Assembly (NCBI GenBank): GCA_015655585.1
Contig: JAATEV010000110.1
Location: forward strand, 1 to 43,368
Direction: 5' to 3'
Source: Terriglobales bacterium
GTDB lineage: Bacteria; Acidobacteriota; Terriglobia; Terriglobales; Acidobacteriaceae
DNA length: 43,368 nt
Under the pieces are notes generated by a model. That model did not search any database and was not told where the DNA came from. It worked only from the letters and a program-made list of their open reading frames with translations. Below are positions 6,565-15,222 of the stretch, piece by piece (within the stretch, counting starts at the first letter, position 1; every line of letters starts with the position of its first letter). The translations under genes were made by a program, and so were the position numbers.

Positions 6565-8283
6565 ATGTCTACTCTTGCCCTCCGCCCCCGGCAACTTGCT
6601 GCGCTCGTCCTCTCTGCCTGCGCCGCGCTGACGCTCCACGCCCAGACATCTCAGACGCCATCCCAGACGTCCCAGACCCCGCCCGCAACCCAGGCTCCCC
6701 GCCGGGGCGGAGCCCGTCCCCCGCTCACCCCCGAGCAGATCCATGCCAACAAATTAATCGGCGAGTACGGTCCCTACCGCGCCAACAACGACCTGCTCTC
6801 CTACGATCTCGATATCCGCGTCGATCCCGAAAAGAAGCTCGTCAGCGGCAAGAACACCATCCGCTTCAAGATGCTCAAAGACGGTGACAAGATCCAGCTT
6901 GAGCTCGTCCCCACCCTCAATATCGATGGCATCAAGTTCGGTTCCGACACCCTCAAGTACGATCGCGATGGCCGCACCCTCTTCGTGAACTTCCCCCGCA
7001 CCCTCCGCGCCGGGCAGGTCTACTCCATCGTCTTCGCCTACTCCGGCACGCCCCAGTCCACCGGCCGCTTCGGCGGCTTCACCTTCGGCAAAGATCCCGT
7101 AGGCCGTCCCTGGGTCTACACCGCCTGCGAGGGCCTCGGCGCCAGCATCTGGTGGCCGAATAAGGACCAGTGGAAGGACGAGCCGCAGGAAGGAATGTGG
7201 ATTCGCGTCGCCGTTCCCAACGGACTCACCGACGTCTCCAACGGACGCTTCGCAGGTAAGAAGGACCTGGGCGACGGCTACACCCAGTGGAACTGGCACG
7301 TCCAGTACCCCATCAACAACTACGACGTCTCCCTGAACATCGGCACCTACGTCCACTTCGGCGACAAGCTCGGCGCGCTCTCGCTCGACTACTACGTCCT
7401 GCCCGAAGACCTCGATAAGGCCAAGGCGCAGTTCTCGCAAGCTCCCGGCATGATCAAGGCCTACGAGCACTACTTCGGCCAGTATCCCTTCCAGAACGAC
7501 GGCTACAAGCTCGTCGAAGCCCCCTACTCCGGCATGGAGCATCAGAGCGCCGTCACCTACGGCAACCTCTTCAAAAACGGCTATCTCGGCCGCGACTGGA
7601 CCGGCGTAGGCATCAGCCCGCGCTTCGACTTCATCATCATCCACGAGAGCGGCCACGAGTGGTTCGGCAACGCCATTACCGCCGCCGACCCCTCCGACAT
7701 GTGGATTCACGAGGGCTGGACCACCTACCTCGAAACTCTCTACGTCGAATACCACTACGGCCATGCCGACGCATTAAAGTACCTCAACGGTTACAAGCCC
7801 AAAGTCCACAACGACCGCCCCATCGTCGGCGAGCACGGCGTCAACATCAGCCCGCCGGAGGATCAGTACTTCAAGGGCGCGCTCTTCCTCAACACCCTGC
7901 GCAGCGTCGTCAACAACGACGCGCTCTGGTGGAAGACCCTCCACGGCCTCTTCCAGACCTTCAAATACAAGACCATCATGACCGAGGATGTGGTCGCCTA
8001 CTTCAACCAGCACACCGGCATGAACCTGACGCCGCTCTTCGACCAGTACCTGCGCCACACGGCCATCCCCACGCTGGAGCTGAAGTTCGACCAGCCCGGC
8101 TCTGTCTCCTACCGCTGGCAGGTGGATGAAAAAGCGTTTGCCATGCCCATCCGCGTAGGCGATCCCGCTCACTGGCAGATCATCCGTCCCACTACCGAGT
8201 GGCAGACGATGAAGACGCCCCTCACCAAGGACACGTTCGATGTAGCCACCGATCTCTACTACGTCAACGTAAACAAGAACTAG
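6565..8283 (+). CDS. Secreted M1-family metallopeptidase
   Basis: A 572-residue zinc aminopeptidase-type enzyme with a Sec signal (cleavage near LHAQ) followed by a Gln/Thr/Pro-rich linker. Gluzincin motifs are intact: HESGH at residues 360-364 with third ligand Glu383 in IHEGWTTYLE (the HExxH-x18-E spacing of M1), and GMEH at 323-326 in place of the GAMEN exopeptidase loop. An N-terminal beta-sandwich (about residues 60-260) precedes the catalytic domain; the large C-terminal ERAP/APN domain is absent, as in short bacterial M1 members. It likely trims peptides in the periplasm or outside the cell. A left-degraded copy of the multi-branched palindromic element begins within a few bases of its stop codon. 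Confidence 0.92.
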   Translation: MSTLALRPRQLAALVLSACAALTLHAQTSQTPSQTSQTPPATQAPRRGGARPPLTPEQIHANKLIGEYGPYRANNDLLSYDLDIRVDPEKKLVSGKNTIRFKMLKDGDKIQLELVPTLNIDGIKFGSDTLKYDRDGRTLFVNFPRTLRAGQVYSIVFAYSGTPQSTGRFGGFTFGKDPVGRPWVYTACEGLGASIWWPNKDQWKDEPQEGMWIRVAVPNGLTDVSNGRFAGKKDLGDGYTQWNWHVQYPINNYDVSLNIGTYVHFGDKLGALSLDYYVLPEDLDKAKAQFSQAPGMIKAYEHYFGQYPFQNDGYKLVEAPYSGMEHQSAVTYGNLFKNGYLGRDWTGVGISPRFDFIIIHESGHEWFGNAITAADPSDMWIHEGWTTYLETLYVEYHYGHADALKYLNGYKPKVHNDRPIVGEHGVNISPPEDQYFKGALFLNTLRSVVNNDALWWKTLHGLFQTFKYKTIMTEDVVAYFNQHTGMNLTPLFDQYLRHTAIPTLELKFDQPGSVSYRWQVDEKAFAMPIRVGDPAHWQIIRPTTEWQTMKTPLTKDTFDVATDLYYVNVNKN

Positions 8284-8448
8284 CACTTCATGCGGTACTG
8301 AACAGCGTGGGTCTCCCGTAGGTCAGAGGGTATATTTATCCGCCGACCAACGGGAGGCCCAAGCGAAGCTTTAAAAAGGCGTGAAACGCCCGCTCGCCGC
8401 GCAGGCGGCCCGTCCGGCAGGACACGAAGCTTAACAATCCGTGTCCGG
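8284..8448 (+). repeat. Multi-branched palindromic element, copy 1 (left part degraded)
   Basis: About 84 nt (8342-8424) match the right half of the element at 13755-13918 closely. The match includes the 16-nt arm GCCGACCAACGGGAGG, a hairpin GGCGT-gaa-ACGCC (8378-8390) and a second hairpin GCCGC/GCGGC whose base changes against the other copy keep pairing. The left arm survives as CTCCCGTAGGTC (8313-8324), pairing with one mismatch to 8345-8356. The outer left strand and one side hairpin are lost apart from GCGGTACT at 8292-8299. An extra hairpin GGACACG/CGTGTCC (8420-8446) is present only here. It follows the M1 peptidase stop directly, so it would form the mRNA 3' end. Confidence 0.8.
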
Positions 8449-10460: not shown

Positions 10461-11663
10461 ATGAAGCTTCCCCGCATTAAATTCGGACGTCCTCAGCAGC
10501 TCGCCGCGCTCCTTCTCCTTCTCTTCCTCGGGGAGTGCCTCTGGGTCGTCAGCCGCCAGCAGCTCTCCCAGCAGGACTATCGCTACGCCCAGTGCGGGCG
10601 CGAGATGTGGGAGCGCCCCTCGCCCCTCGCCGGCTACTTCACCACCTGCGGCAACCTCAACGGCGACGGCACCTTCGCCTACCGAGTCTCCGGCCTGCCT
10701 CTCACCCTCCAGCGCCTCGTCCTCCTCGGGGCCGATAAGTTCCGCAAGCCCGAAAATCGTCTCTACGCCGAAGGCACCCTCAAGGGCTCCATGTGGGAGG
10801 CGCGCCACCAGCTCTTCAGCGTCAAATATCTCCTGCATCTCCCCTTCATCTTCTTCGCCATCTGGCTCGGTGGCGGGTTATGGTGGGTCTCCCGCCGCCT
10901 CTTCGGCAACGAAGGCGGATTCTTCGCCCTCGCCCTCTACTGCTTCTGTCCGGAGGTCGTCCGCGCCGCTGTCAATCCCAACAACGACGTCCTCGCCATG
11001 TGGGGACTCTACGGCCTCGTCTACACCGCCATCGGCGTCGCCCATGCCATGCAGGGGCCGCGGCGCAAATGGCGTCCGCGCATCGCACTCCTCACCCTCG
11101 CCCTCGGACTCACCGCCACCGCGCACCTGCTGGCCGCGATGGTAGGCTTCGTCCTCTCTTTCCTCTGGATGTTCTACCTCGCTGAGCGCCGCCGCAGCTA
11201 CGTCATGCAGGTGCTCATCTTCTCCGCCGTCGGAGCGATCGTCATTCTGCTCGCGTCGTATGCCTTCCGTCTCGCGCCCTTCAGCTACGTCTTTACCGGA
11301 GGCTCCGCCCGCTTCTGGTTTTCGCTCGAACCCGCCAGCCATTTCTTTTCCAGCCTCGCCAACGCGCCCATTGCCGTCGCCGCCCTCGTCTCGCTGATCC
11401 TCTACGTCACCACCCGGCGCTGTCGTTACTTCGGCAACACGGCCCCGCTCGTCATGACGCTCCTGCTGCTCCCCCTCATCACCACCCAAACCGTCTCGCA
11501 GCCTCTCATCTGGGCCATCCCCTTCCTCCTTACCTTCATCGGCGGTGTCTTCGCCGACGCCCTCGAAACCCGCCAGCGCAAGCTCTTCCTCGTCCTCTCC
11601 GGCGGCGTCCTCCTCACCCAGACCCTCATCTGCCTCTCGCTCCTCCCCCAGCTAGCCCGCTAG
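10461..11663 (+). CDS. Polytopic membrane protein, possibly GT39/PMT-like
   Basis: A 400-residue integral membrane protein with about nine to ten hydrophobic segments. It starts with one helix (LAALLLLLFLGECLWVV). An extracytoplasmic loop of about 90 residues follows (QQDYRYAQCGREMWE and onward). Alternating helices run to the C-terminus. This layout, with an acidic residue in the first loop and a positive-inside pattern, resembles lipid-linked glycosyltransferases of the PMT/GT39 type, but the usual Asp-Glu pair is not clear. The ATG at 10461 is used; the frame is open to 10398 without a good start. The role is not assigned. A dispersed hairpin repeat follows its stop. Confidence 0.65.
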   Translation: MKLPRIKFGRPQQLAALLLLLFLGECLWVVSRQQLSQQDYRYAQCGREMWERPSPLAGYFTTCGNLNGDGTFAYRVSGLPLTLQRLVLLGADKFRKPENRLYAEGTLKGSMWEARHQLFSVKYLLHLPFIFFAIWLGGGLWWVSRRLFGNEGGFFALALYCFCPEVVRAAVNPNNDVLAMWGLYGLVYTAIGVAHAMQGPRRKWRPRIALLTLALGLTATAHLLAAMVGFVLSFLWMFYLAERRRSYVMQVLIFSAVGAIVILLASYAFRLAPFSYVFTGGSARFWFSLEPASHFFSSLANAPIAVAALVSLILYVTTRRCRYFGNTAPLVMTLLLLPLITTQTVSQPLIWAIPFLLTFIGGVFADALETRQRKLFLVLSGGVLLTQTLICLSLLPQLAR

Positions 11664-11968: not shown

Positions 11969-13750
11969 GTGATCTTGAAGTCTCCCCTTCGCTCCCTCTG
12001 TGTCCTCGGCGCCGTCTCCCTCCTCCTCCTCAGCGGAGGATGCCGCCGCTCCCGCCGCTCCAAGTCCCAGCCCAACACCGACGCTTACGCCGACAAGCTC
12101 CACCAGCTCGTTGAAAAGAAAGCCCTGCCCTCCGAGAAGGTCGATACCAGCAAGGTACCCAACCTCCGCTGGCCCAACTTCTCCGACTACCAGTCCATCG
12201 TCGCCGCCTTCTACGAAGCCCGTAACTACGAGGTCGCCTGGACCCGCGACGGCGTCCCCACCCCCACGGCCAAAGCCTTCATCGAGCAGTTCCAGAACGC
12301 CTCCGCCAAGGGCCTCATCCCCGAGGACTACGACGCCTCCCGCTGGGACGGCCGCATCCAGGCGCTCTCAGCCAAATCCGACGACGCTATCTCTTCCTTC
12401 GACGTCGCCATAACCGTCAACGTCCTACGCTATATCTCCGATCTCCACATGGGCCGTGTCAACCCCGCCCACTTCAACTTCGAGATCCCCGTGCAGGACA
12501 AGAAGTACAACCTCGCCGAATTCGTCTCCGACAACGCAGTAGACGCCGCCGACGTTCCTAAACTGATCGCTGGCGTCGAGCCCGACTCCGAAGACTACCG
12601 CCGCACCGAGCAGGCCCTCGCCCACTATCTAGACCTCGCCAAACAACAGCAGGAAGAAAACGCCGACCCCCTTCCCGCAGTAGCCAAAACCGTCTCCACC
12701 GGCGGCTCCTACCCCGCAGCCGATGCTCTCCTCCAGCGCCTCCAGCTAGAGGGCGCCGCCGATCCAGCCCCCGCGCCGCCCGCCGACGCCCCCGCCCCGC
12801 GCCACACCACCTACACCGCGGCTCTCGCCACCGCCGTCAAGCACTACCAGCAGCGCCACGGCCTCACCGACGACGGCAAGCTCACCCCGCAGACCATCAA
12901 GTCCCTCAATGTCCCCCTCTCCGAACGCGTCCTCCAGCTCGAAAACTCCCTCGAACGTTGGCGCTGGCTCCCCGAGCCCTACCTCCACCCACGCCTCATG
13001 GTGAACCTGCCGGAGTTTCTCCTGCGCGGCTACACGCCCGACAACACCCAGGACTTCTCCATGCGCGTCGTCGTCGGCCAGGCCAAAGACAACCACGACA
13101 CCCCCGTCTTCGCCCACATGATGAAGTACCTCGTCTTCCGACCCTACTGGAACGTCCCCGTCAGCATCGCCCGCAAGGAGATCGTCCCGCACGTAGCCGC
13201 CAACCCCGGCTACCTCGCCTCGAAAAACTTCGAAGCCGTCAACAATAAAGGAGTTGTCCAGACCGGCGTTACCGCCCGACAGATCCAGCAGGGCATGGTC
13301 ATGGTGCGTGAGAAGCCCGGCCCCAAAAACTCCCTCGGACTGGTCAAGTTCATGTTCCCCAACCAGTACGACATCTACCTCCACTCCACCCCGGCGGTCT
13401 CGCTCTTCCAGCGCACCCGCCGCGACTACAGCCACGGCTGCATCCGCGTCCAGAAGCCCATCGACCTCGCTACCTGGGTCCTACAGGACAACTCCGGCGA
13501 CTGGGACACCGACAAGATCACCGACGCCATGAACAACGGTCCCGACAACAAGACCGTCAGCCTCAAAACCCAGCTCCCCATCGTCATCTTCTACCTCACC
13601 GCCCACGTCGACGAAGACGGTCAGGTAGACTTCTTCGACGACATCTACGGCTACGACGCCGACATGCAGCAGGTCTTCGCCAAAGGCCCACCCTACCCTG
13701 TAAAACCCGAGCCCATCGTCCCCAAAACCAAACCCGGAGATACGGTCTAA
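11969..13750 (+). CDS. L,D-transpeptidase lipoprotein (YcbB/LdtD type)
   Basis: A 593-residue cell-wall enzyme that makes 3-3 crosslinks in peptidoglycan or attaches proteins to it, using a Cys nucleophile. The start is GTG at 11969. The signal ends in the lipobox LSGGC with lipidated Cys25, so it is anchored to a membrane. Order of domains: YcbB scaffold domain (about 60-260), a Pro/Ala-rich linker, a PG_binding_1 helix bundle (about 280-320, KHYQQRHGLTDDGKLTPQTI) and the YkuD catalytic domain (about 345-510) with the active-site block YSHGCIRV, Cys491. All parts of the LdtD-type architecture are present. E. coli LdtD is of similar length but anchored by a membrane helix, not lipid. A 164-nt palindromic element begins 4 nt after its stop. 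Confidence 0.93.
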   Translation: MILKSPLRSLCVLGAVSLLLLSGGCRRSRRSKSQPNTDAYADKLHQLVEKKALPSEKVDTSKVPNLRWPNFSDYQSIVAAFYEARNYEVAWTRDGVPTPTAKAFIEQFQNASAKGLIPEDYDASRWDGRIQALSAKSDDAISSFDVAITVNVLRYISDLHMGRVNPAHFNFEIPVQDKKYNLAEFVSDNAVDAADVPKLIAGVEPDSEDYRRTEQALAHYLDLAKQQQEENADPLPAVAKTVSTGGSYPAADALLQRLQLEGAADPAPAPPADAPAPRHTTYTAALATAVKHYQQRHGLTDDGKLTPQTIKSLNVPLSERVLQLENSLERWRWLPEPYLHPRLMVNLPEFLLRGYTPDNTQDFSMRVVVGQAKDNHDTPVFAHMMKYLVFRPYWNVPVSIARKEIVPHVAANPGYLASKNFEAVNNKGVVQTGVTARQIQQGMVMVREKPGPKNSLGLVKFMFPNQYDIYLHSTPAVSLFQRTRRDYSHGCIRVQKPIDLATWVLQDNSGDWDTDKITDAMNNGPDNKTVSLKTQLPIVIFYLTAHVDEDGQVDFFDDIYGYDADMQQVFAKGPPYPVKPEPIVPKTKPGDTV

Positions 13751-13754
13751 AAAC

Positions 13755-13918
13755 GTCCTAACGCCGGACGGGCGGTACTTCGTACCGTGCCGAGCTTCGC
13801 GCAGTCCTCCCGTTGGTCGGCGGAAGAATCTACCAGCCGACCAACGGGAGGCCCACGCGAAGCTTTAAAAAGGCGTGCAAACGCCCGCCCCACGCGCAGT
13901 GGGCCCGTCCGGCAGGAC
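13755..13918. repeat. Multi-branched palindromic element, copy 2 (complete)
   Basis: A 164-nt element that folds on itself. The closing stem is GTCCT/AGGAC plus CCGGACGGG (13764-13772) with CCCGTCCGG (13904-13912). Inside are hairpin GGTAC-ttc-GTACC (13774-13786) and a long arm: AGCTTCGCG (13793-13801) with CGCGAAGCT (13856-13864), then the 16-bp CCTCCCGTTGGTCGGC (13806-13821) with its complement (13836-13851). Two more hairpins follow: GGCGT-gcaa-ACGCC (13872-13885) and CCCAC-gcgca-GTGGG (13889-13903). It fills the gap between the L,D-transpeptidase stop (13750) and the cyclophilin stop (13927, minus). It could act as a structured 3' end for both, a REP-like element, or a small mobile palindrome. 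Confidence 0.85.
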
Positions 13919-13926
13919 ATGATCCT

Positions 13927-15222
13927 TTAACGAGCCTTTCTAGGCACCGGAACCAGATTCTTCTTCACCATCTCCATATCCACCGGGTCGCCATCGTTCA
14001 GCACATCAATGTGCTCAATCACCACCGTATCCAGCGGCTTGTCCTTGGCGTCCCGCCGCACCCGCGCAATCTGCTTCTCCAACTCCACCGAAGCATCGTC
14101 GCACTGCCCAAAGACCGTATACGTCCTGCTCAGCCTCCGTACCGGATGCTCCGTCACGTAGAACTGGCTTCCATTCGTATTCGGCCCCGCGTTCGCCATC
14201 GCCAGCCGCCCCGCGCGGTAGAACGTAATCCCCTCCGTCGGCCCCTCGTCCTTGTACTGGAACCCCGGCCCGCCTCCGCCCGGCCGTCCTCCACCCTGCG
14301 CCAGAAAGTCAGGAATCACCCGATGAAAGCTTGACCCGTCATAGAACGGCCTGCCATGCACCACCTGCTTCGTCACCGGATCGGTCCAGTCCAGCGTCCC
14401 CGTGGCCAGCCCGATAAACACCCCGCTCGTAATCGGAGCCTGCTTCGTATACAGCCTGCACGTAATCTTGCCCATGCTCGTGTGAATAATCACCGTAGGC
14501 CCCGAGGGCTCCGGCTGCGGAGCCTCTGCCGGACGCTGCATAGCCGGCGGCAGAATCGGCTTCACCTTCGCGGCAACCTTGGGCATAGGCTGTCCACGCC
14601 GCACAATCGTCACCCGGTTAATCGCCACCGCCTGGTTCGGATCGCCGTCCGTCGTCAGCGCAAACCGCGTAATCTCCGCCGCCCGCTTCGCCGAGACTTC
14701 GTCGCACTGCCCAAAGATGGGCATGTGCCCATCCAGCGCGGCTGCCTTCCGGCTCGTAATCAGAAACTGTGAGCTGTTCGTGTCCGGCTTCGCATTCACC
14801 ATCGCCAGCCTGCCCGGAACGTCGAACTTCAGCTCCGGCACAATCTCATTCGCGAACGTATACCCAGCCGTCCCTTGCCGGTTACCCAGCCGGTCGCCAC
14901 CCACAATGTACGAGGAGGAATTCCCGGCAATCACCGTGCCGTCATAGAACCGCTTGCCATGCATCACCTTCCCGCTCACCGGGTCTGTCCAGTCCTTCGT
15001 CCCCTCCGCCAGCGCGATAAAGTTCGCCACGGCCACCGGAGCTTCTTTCTCAAAGAGCCTGCACGTCATCCGGCCCATCGTCGTATCGATCACTGCCACC
15101 GGCCCCGTAGGCTCCGGCCCCGACACCGGAAAAACCGCAGTCTGAGCCGCTCCTGAACCAGCCGCCACCAGCAAAGTGGAGGCCCAAAGGCAAACCGTCG
15201 TAACGCGAGAAAAAAGAGTCAT
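13927..15222 (-). CDS. Two-domain secreted cyclophilin (peptidyl-prolyl isomerase)
   Basis: A 431-residue exported protein with two cyclophilin domains (about 35-195 and 225-420). Cyclophilins isomerise X-Pro bonds during folding in the periplasm. The ATG at 15222 is chosen because AGGA lies 6 nt upstream and a Sec signal follows; the frame is open to 15273. Domain 2 keeps the catalytic block FHRVIPDFLAQGGG, plus MANAGPNTNGSQFYVT and TVFGQCDD. Domain 1 keeps the fold motifs (MVNAKPDTNSSQFLIT, MPIFGQCDE) but has VIAGNSSSYIVGG where FHRxxPxFxxQGG should be, so the catalytic Arg is lost with no length change. Domain 1 is therefore probably non-catalytic, perhaps a binding module. The gene is convergent with the L,D-transpeptidase. 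Confidence 0.9.
   Translation of the reverse strand: MTLFSRVTTVCLWASTLLVAAGSGAAQTAVFPVSGPEPTGPVAVIDTTMGRMTCRLFEKEAPVAVANFIALAEGTKDWTDPVSGKVMHGKRFYDGTVIAGNSSSYIVGGDRLGNRQGTAGYTFANEIVPELKFDVPGRLAMVNAKPDTNSSQFLITSRKAAALDGHMPIFGQCDEVSAKRAAEITRFALTTDGDPNQAVAINRVTIVRRGQPMPKVAAKVKPILPPAMQRPAEAPQPEPSGPTVIIHTSMGKITCRLYTKQAPITSGVFIGLATGTLDWTDPVTKQVVHGRPFYDGSSFHRVIPDFLAQGGGRPGGGGPGFQYKDEGPTEGITFYRAGRLAMANAGPNTNGSQFYVTEHPVRRLSRTYTVFGQCDDASVELEKQIARVRRDAKDKPLDTVVIEHIDVLNDGDPVDMEMVKKNLVPVPRKAR

Follow-up and report, generated by a model that had tools for sequence, protein, structure and literature searches.

A palindromic element between two convergent genes

The window, the whole 43,368-nt stretch of Terriglobales bacterium DNA analysed here (own genome assembly 74.7% complete), carries a palindromic element that occupies the entire gap between two convergent genes, one for an L,D-transpeptidase (YkuD) and one for a cyclophilin-type peptidyl-prolyl isomerase (Table 1; gene calls were made with a codon-score script, not taken from an annotation). 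The YkuD stop codon ends 4 nt ahead of the element and the cyclophilin stop lies 8 nt from its right end. The predicted fold has four arms within an outer stem, with a minimum free energy of −108.8 kcal/mol compared to a shuffle mean of −63.4 (z −13.6; equalled by 0 of 200 shuffles), which bears out the coordinates and the outer stem with four arms first proposed from the letters alone (hereafter, the sequence-only reading). The long arm has 10 bp followed by 16 uninterrupted bp plus a few tip pairs, close to the 9 bp and 16 bp counted in that reading.

Table 1. Coordinates of the features discussed (window positions unless a locus is named)
Feature	Position	Strand	Evidence
Upstream gene, L,D-transpeptidase (YkuD)	11969..13750	+	Pfam, orthologues
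Convergent gene, cyclophilin-type peptidyl-prolyl isomerase	13927..15099	-	Pfam
Full element, two half-units in inverted orientation	13755..13918	+	Fold; own-genome BLAST; covariance-model matches on both strands
Right half-unit	13838..13918	+	Model R1, 102.3 bits; covariation; itself a member of the R1 alignment
Left half-unit, divergent, inverted	13755..13819	-	Model R1, 28 bits, E 1.6e-7
Left-end terminal hairpin followed by TTTTT, terminator-like for the convergent gene	13754..13770	-	1 found; shuffles mean 0.5
Second copy, a right half-unit	8344..8423	+	Model R1, 95.3 bits (also in the R1 alignment); BLAST
Loops holding other repeats	L169:250-339, L241:5797-5894, L248:6661-6746, L215:3892-4073, L236:947-1113, L182:6200-6283
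Gap-free orthologous pairs with a both-arm change	L140/L133, L174/L186, L163/L162, L138/L191
Y1 loci with inverted repeats	L070, L075, L079, L081, L083, L085, L087, L088, L091, L093, L095, L096, L098, L101

The right half-unit is made up of a core arm (CGACCAACGGGAGG), hairpin h1 (GGCGT.GCAA.ACGCC), hairpin h2 (CCAC.GCGCA.GTGG) and a terminal hairpin (GTCC.GGCA.GGAC), and the left half is a variant type that starts with GTCCTAACGCCGGAC. The second copy, placed at 8342–8424 in the sequence-only reading, was recovered by both BLAST and the covariance model; it is no full element but a right half preceded by part of a left arm, which begins at about 8313, 29 nt past the stop codon ending at 8283. 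Between the last hairpins of the two copies five stem letters differ and the loop GCGCA is identical, as had been noticed, and of the three pairs affected, two (A-T to C-G and C-G to G-C) are genuinely compensatory. The remaining one, which had been read as C-G to T-G, does not compensate: the position is non-paired across the family, with C (102), T (34), G (21) or A (18) standing opposite the G and another arrangement in 2 of the 177 h2 sequences, a set chosen by loop from 203 distinct units.

Anatomy, copy number and hosts of the family

The unit of the family is an 81-nt half with three hairpins and half of the long central arm, arranged in the order core arm, linker, h1, h2 and terminal hairpin as in the right half-unit above; a full element is an inverted dimer whose two halves join at the core. 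Hairpin h1 occurs as GTCAC.GAA.GTGAC or as GGCGT.GCAA.ACGCC, while h2 has four pairs around the loop GCGCA or GCGTA. The 296 unit matches come from 119 named stretches together with 32 from the own genome. They resolved into 89 core-to-core dimers (gap below 400 nt), leaving 118 singles, of which 36 have a recognisable left arm and 82 have none. The gap within the dimer was below 60 nt in 70 of the 89; the other 19 hold 60–400 nt in the loop, sometimes including other repeats. An exact match to the right end was the criterion for choosing the named stretches, at least 119 in all, so this sample lacks copies that have no right end.

BLAST of the own genome returned 75 pieces at about 40 places, the full-length pieces being 83–93% identical. 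The end motif CCCGTCCGGCAGGAC, allowing at most one mismatch on both strands, occurs 50 times in genome G000, 206 times in G014, 286 times in G024 and 297 times in G031 (per-strand counts of exactly 100 or 150 being read as at least 100 and at least 150), whereas its reversed-letter control occurs 0–4 times in these four genomes. Many other species have the motif 0–3 times, and copy number is patchy, from 0 to about 300. Within the genus, 26 of 37 genomes had a match to the covariance model of the 81-nt half-unit (R1); among 24 genomes from other groups there was 1, with a marginal match (E 4e-4). The model was trained on 205 of 215 sequences with lengths of 72–98, partly the same data as were searched, and up to 76 candidates per genome were scored. 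The matches listed include ones in Edaphobacter lichenicola (the taxonomy has it as Tunturiibacter lichenicola), Granulicella sp., Terriglobus sp. and Acidobacteriaceae records, as well as in a single assembly with no label beyond 'bacterium'.

No match was found in viral contigs with the exact pattern, nor in plasmids or phages. At the Rfam gathering threshold only a distant tRNA scored above it and no family matched the element; at a loose E-value the only matches were to miRNA precursors, below threshold, which we take as hairpin artefacts. The sequence-only reading had named a lack of further copies, or copies that break pairing, as the contrary outcome. Copies proved to be many and most stay paired, with about 6–9% of the h1 and h2 pairs in the sampled units departing from Watson–Crick pairing. 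The family is real and widespread in its genus, and it has no Rfam match.

Placement relative to genes and at orthologous loci

The elements lie close behind genes. Where an element end looks onto the 3′ end of a gene (144 cases), its distance from the stop codon is at most 15 nt in 90 and at most 20 nt in 102; for dimer ends the median distance is 9 nt from a stop, and 40–51 nt where the end faces a gene start. Of 89 dimers, 77 could be used for gene context, with 27 between convergent, 35 between tandem and 15 between divergent genes, compared to 121, 433 and 118 among 672 adjacent gene pairs; the context table is without 40 of the 207 elements, which had no gene on one side or overlapped a predicted gene. 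In the own genome, the left side sits behind a gene 3′ end in 28 of the 38 copies with genes called on both sides. We considered whether solo halves invariably have a gene 3′ end on their broken side, and rejected this: in the 57 usable solos that lack a left arm, a 3′ end was faced by the intact end in 37 and by the broken side in 33.

Immediately after the terminal hairpin an A is present in about 80% of ends, followed by a weak T-rich stretch. As both occur alike before a gene end and before a gene start, they appear to be part of the element or of its target.

Comparison of orthologous loci reveals that copies have been gained or lost. At all 29 loci compared in other genomes, the YkuD orthologue stops at the same C-terminal motif (judged by eye), and in none of the 29 does a unit lie directly behind it. 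Two of these loci hold a unit at another position according to a model search: L105 has it about 1 kb downstream, and L107 on the upstream side of the orthologue. Synteny links the window to the E. lichenicola locus L185, in which an element follows the orthologue of the gene that ends at 11663, a site that is empty in the window; conversely, no element follows the YkuD gene of L185, unlike that of the window. Gain or loss was also seen between L138 and L191 and between L209 and L234, and one orthologous site may be full, half, a 45-bp end-to-end remnant (L234) or empty. The element has clear inverted ends, the terminal inverted repeats of the MITE definition; no target-site duplication was seen, the occupied and empty loci being too diverged to show one.

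Covariation of the stems

The h2 and terminal hairpins of 60 aligned half-units, a subset of 143 eligible, were compared with shuffles that ignore relatedness. Standard pairs fill 98.8% of the cells compared to 87.6% after shuffling, 56 cells are changed on both sides compared to 16.5, and the covariation score is 0.294 compared to 0.073; none of these three values was reached by any of 500 shuffles or in any slid register. Two weaker measures were less distinct, namely pairs with a both-sided change (3 against 2.3, attained by 159 of 500 shuffles) and further pair types (8 against 6.3, attained by 18 of 500). Since the terminal hairpin is nearly invariant in this set, the covariation signal comes from h2. 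In h1 with the GAA loop, 425 of 445 cells are Watson–Crick compared to 311 expected by shuffling, in 89 hairpins chosen by loop from 203 distinct units.

The loops and the linker, by comparison, are nearly constant, while the stems vary and mostly remain paired. Among units taken without regard to loop, the h2 loop reads GCGCA or GCGTA in 69 of 73 solos without a left arm, 29 of 34 solos with one and 138 of 155 dimer halves. Six orthologous half-unit pairs were aligned, and all four that are free of gaps show at least one change of both arms in place (Table 1), L138/L191 having in addition one broken pair, in L138; the two others differ by module exchange or larger changes. The terminal hairpin has changed wholesale in one genome, G027, which has GGCC.GGCA.GGCC at least 100 times per strand and the usual end type only 6 times. 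Each of the other genomes among the 61 has the G027 type 0–3 times.

The many intergenic copies with covarying stems agree with the earlier statement that the folded form is copied as a unit. The further claim in that statement, that covariation shows the folded form to be selected, goes too far, as paired changes also come from template switching and from conversion between copies. Solos lacking a left arm have 91.0% of their h1 and h2 positions paired, solos that possess one 94.2% and dimers 93.1%, with h1 scored at its best-pairing loop length, which leans towards pairing. Such near-equality would not be expected if solos were dead remnants and pairing were kept only by selection for mobility. 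Given the pairing of the solo halves and the template switching described in excerpts of PMC8794818, we rejected covariation as proof of selection.

We therefore considered whether the covariation could be purely mutational, with template switching across hairpins or gene conversion perfecting the palindromes and no structural selection. The process is documented for RNA genes in the same excerpts (PMC8794818), and it would suit a family in which paired changes come with few intermediates, G.T and A.C mispairs are similar in number, solo halves are paired almost as well as dimers and a limited set of stem types is common to the copies. A blind process acting on whole palindromes, however, predicts something other than loops and a linker that hold nearly still as the stems change, and a single terminal pair change at the at least 200 ends of G027 needs amplification or very thorough conversion. 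A purely mutational origin is thus a possibility that we hold to be rather doubtful, and template switching and conversion among copies probably contribute to the paired changes.

DNA-level or RNA-level pairing

Selection in a transcript should clearly favour G.U over A.C mispairs. Pooled counts, which mix both strands, gave G.T and A.C numbers of 3 and 4 in h1, 8 and 14 in the inner four pairs of h2 and 7 and 4 in the terminal hairpin; the second h1 type gave 8 and 6, with 21 non-folding hairpins excluded. Recounted by the direction of transcription, in units oriented by both flanking genes (55 sense and 49 antisense), there are 19 mispairs of the G.U type and 15 of the A.C type, h1 being scored, here and for its second type, at its best-pairing loop length as above. 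In 117 units between oppositely directed genes the numbers are 24 G.T and 16 A.C. As G.U does not exceed A.C on the transcribed strand, the pairing looks DNA-level: the hairpins seem to change letters yet stay paired at the DNA rather than the RNA level. A clear RNA signature is absent in this small sample.

These counts weigh on the structured 3′ RNA that had been offered earlier as one reading, taken here as an RNA at mRNA 3′ ends (a terminator, a stability element or a ribosome-stalling hairpin) whose covariation is selected in the transcript. The nearness of the ends to stop codons (90 of 144 within 15 nt) fits it, as do the terminator-like match on the minus strand at 13770–13754 and the weak T-rich tract outside the ends, where TTT is about twice as common as in controls (82 of 267 compared to 200 of 1510 random intergenic 14-mers); in addition, excerpts of PMC12306157, citing another paper, report E. 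coli REPs within 15 nt of a stop as ribosome-stalling. On the other hand, 19 G.U against 15 A.C, in a sample of 34 cases that is few, is not the clear excess that RNA selection should produce, copy number is very patchy between species, and no Rfam family save a distant tRNA rises above its gathering score. Structured RNA as the cause of the covariation is accordingly quite improbable.

Search for a mobiliser

The sequence-only reading had also raised movement by a RAYT-type transposase. Y1_Tnp genes are common in the genus, and Y1 transposases were the most evident candidates. We searched 43 Y1 loci (34 in the genus and 9 in other genera of the order, a subset of the Y1 matches and some cut by contig ends) with nhmmer at E 1, and none carried the unit. 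Genomes G002, G014, G027 and G028 gave no Y1_Tnp match, all four being element-rich and listed as 99–100% complete. G009, G010 and G013, with 6, 8 and 4 Y1 matches, had 0 element matches in the DNA search (G010 had one in the covariance search), and the number of Y1 genes does not track the number of elements. Exact inverted repeats of at least 15 nt, 350–2600 nt apart, were found at 14 of the 32 Y1 loci of a first set, and none is recognisable as the element.

On this evidence, a RAYT- or TIRYT-mobilised REP family served in trans by a Y1 HUH transposase is unlikely. The architecture and placement of our elements do resemble those of REP dimers as given in excerpts of PMC3733652, and candidate Y1 genes abound in the genus; yet the unit is missing from all the Y1 loci searched, the inverted repeats seen at 14 of the first 32 are of another kind, four element-rich genomes gave no Y1 match, and the family has neither a GTAG nor a CGTC tag.

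Other routes to a partner gene gave little. When the proteins of the fetched stretches, 335 of them within 300 nt of a unit, were compared by clustering alone, no convincing recurrent neighbour and no transposase-like family emerged, the largest cluster having 7 members, 3 of them adjacent. No autonomous copy was seen either: of 20 outward-facing pairs 60–3500 nt apart, only one encloses a predicted gene, presumably the housekeeping GTPase MnmE.

Separately, the Y1 loci showed inverted repeats of other families, e.g. GGGTGCCCCATCC, GGGTGCCCCAT and AAAAGGGGCTTTAGCC, which look like the TIR-flanked type of Acidobacteria in excerpts of PMC3733652. One Y1_Tnp match, G005:C109:3890-4252 (L073), was much stronger than the others listed (E 9.3e-38) and is perhaps an ordinary IS200-type transposase.

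Relation to known repeat families and proposed mechanism

The family shares with GTAG-tagged REP/REPIN sequences a high copy number of intergenic palindromes, occurrence as inverted dimers and solos, a position behind stops and between convergent genes, and families that differ between species. As in REPINs, two inverted units make the full element (89 dimers and 118 singles among 296 unit matches). It differs from them in its 81-nt three-hairpin half-unit, where they have a single palindrome of 20–40 bp, in lacking GTAG in a base table of the 26 nt outside 250 ends, and in that its terminal GTCC/GGAC sits inside a hairpin whereas the GTAG-type tetranucleotide is unpaired in REP; in addition, the element lay beside none of the Y1 genes searched.

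CGTC-tagged REPs (Di Nocera 2013, PMC3733652), as far as excerpts of that paper describe them, are likewise palindromic dimers without a dedicated transposase. They have an unpaired terminal CGTC/TGTC tag, an 8–9 bp stem opening with complementary AT and mostly a CCA tail, and the five phyla named for them in these excerpts exclude Acidobacteria. In our family the end GTC is paired, within GTCC.GGCA.GGAC, and a comparison by eye with the text of PMC3733652 showed no agreement in stem length, in loops or in the paired AT that opens the stem. The TIRYT-associated TIR repeats of Acidobacteria, in excerpts of the same paper, come from the same phylum and are inverted-repeat families of moderate copy number; unlike them, our family flanks none of the Y1 loci searched, some of which bear repeats such as GGGTGCCCCAT and AAAAGGGGCTTTAGCC instead. 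No description of the family in Acidobacteria was found in the literature searched, including excerpts of PMC6006769 and PMC3174227; excerpts of PMC12306157 place Granulicella aggregans in a table of counts in which no family is named.

Taken by behaviour, the family is of the REP/REPIN kind; by tag or transposase, it is neither a GTAG nor a CGTC REP. A mobile palindrome of the REP/BIME type, one of the classes put forward by the sequence-only reading, is the best class for it, and a new REP-like variant the best reading. We consider it likely that this is a non-coding, REP/REPIN-like family of DNA palindromes, mobile now or in the past and confined, in the genomes searched, to a single genus-level group of soil Acidobacteriaceae. 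We take it as REP-like mobile DNA owing to the combination of fixed loop letters with stems that are free but paired, a pattern that an enzyme reading a folded strand would need.

In such a mechanism the unit would spread through a folded single-stranded DNA form, and a putative enzyme would check the loop letters and the pairing of the stems, much as reported for some TnpA_REP proteins, which according to excerpts of PMC8266576 depend in vitro on loop bases and on intact stems. Template switching, or conversion between copies, could be the source of some of the compensatory changes, which would then be filtered by the need to fold. A copy that has come to lie behind a gene may well serve there as an incidental terminator or as a roadblock at the 3′ end. 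Tentatively, we suggest that a non-Y1 enzyme reads the conserved loops, requires the stems to pair irrespective of their letters and deposits copies directly after stop codons, in which case it would belong to an undescribed system of single-stranded DNA transposition or amplification in which enzyme and element co-evolve. Such co-evolution is suggested by the change of the G027 terminal hairpin from GTCC/GGAC to GGCC/GGCC.

With up to some hundreds of ends per genome in many species, the family offers a large natural data set of DNA stem covariation without an RNA G.U signature. Two questions become testable, namely what mobilises REP-like palindromes that have no adjacent transposase, and what share of covariation is due to template switching as opposed to selection. 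It also advises caution, as covariation between genomic copies alone is no evidence for a structured RNA.

Mosaic copies

BIME, ERIC and BOX elements share with the family a modular, mosaic make-up and palindromes of roughly 100–200 bp. In some copies of our family (L010, L027, L033, L036 and L038), part of the central arm has given way to a longer module around CCTGCCCAGACCGGTATAC, which makes them mosaics. An extra hairpin type, CCCCGCAAACAGGTCTTCGTTTGTGGGG, was seen in some h2 (L134, L138, L161, L178 and L186) and varies between copies. Finally, in some elements the loop that separates the two core arms contains other repeats, e.g. TCATCCTGAGCGAAGC, GCGGCTTTAGCCGC and GGGTGCCCCACGTCTC (Table 1), as if hairpin loops were insertion targets.
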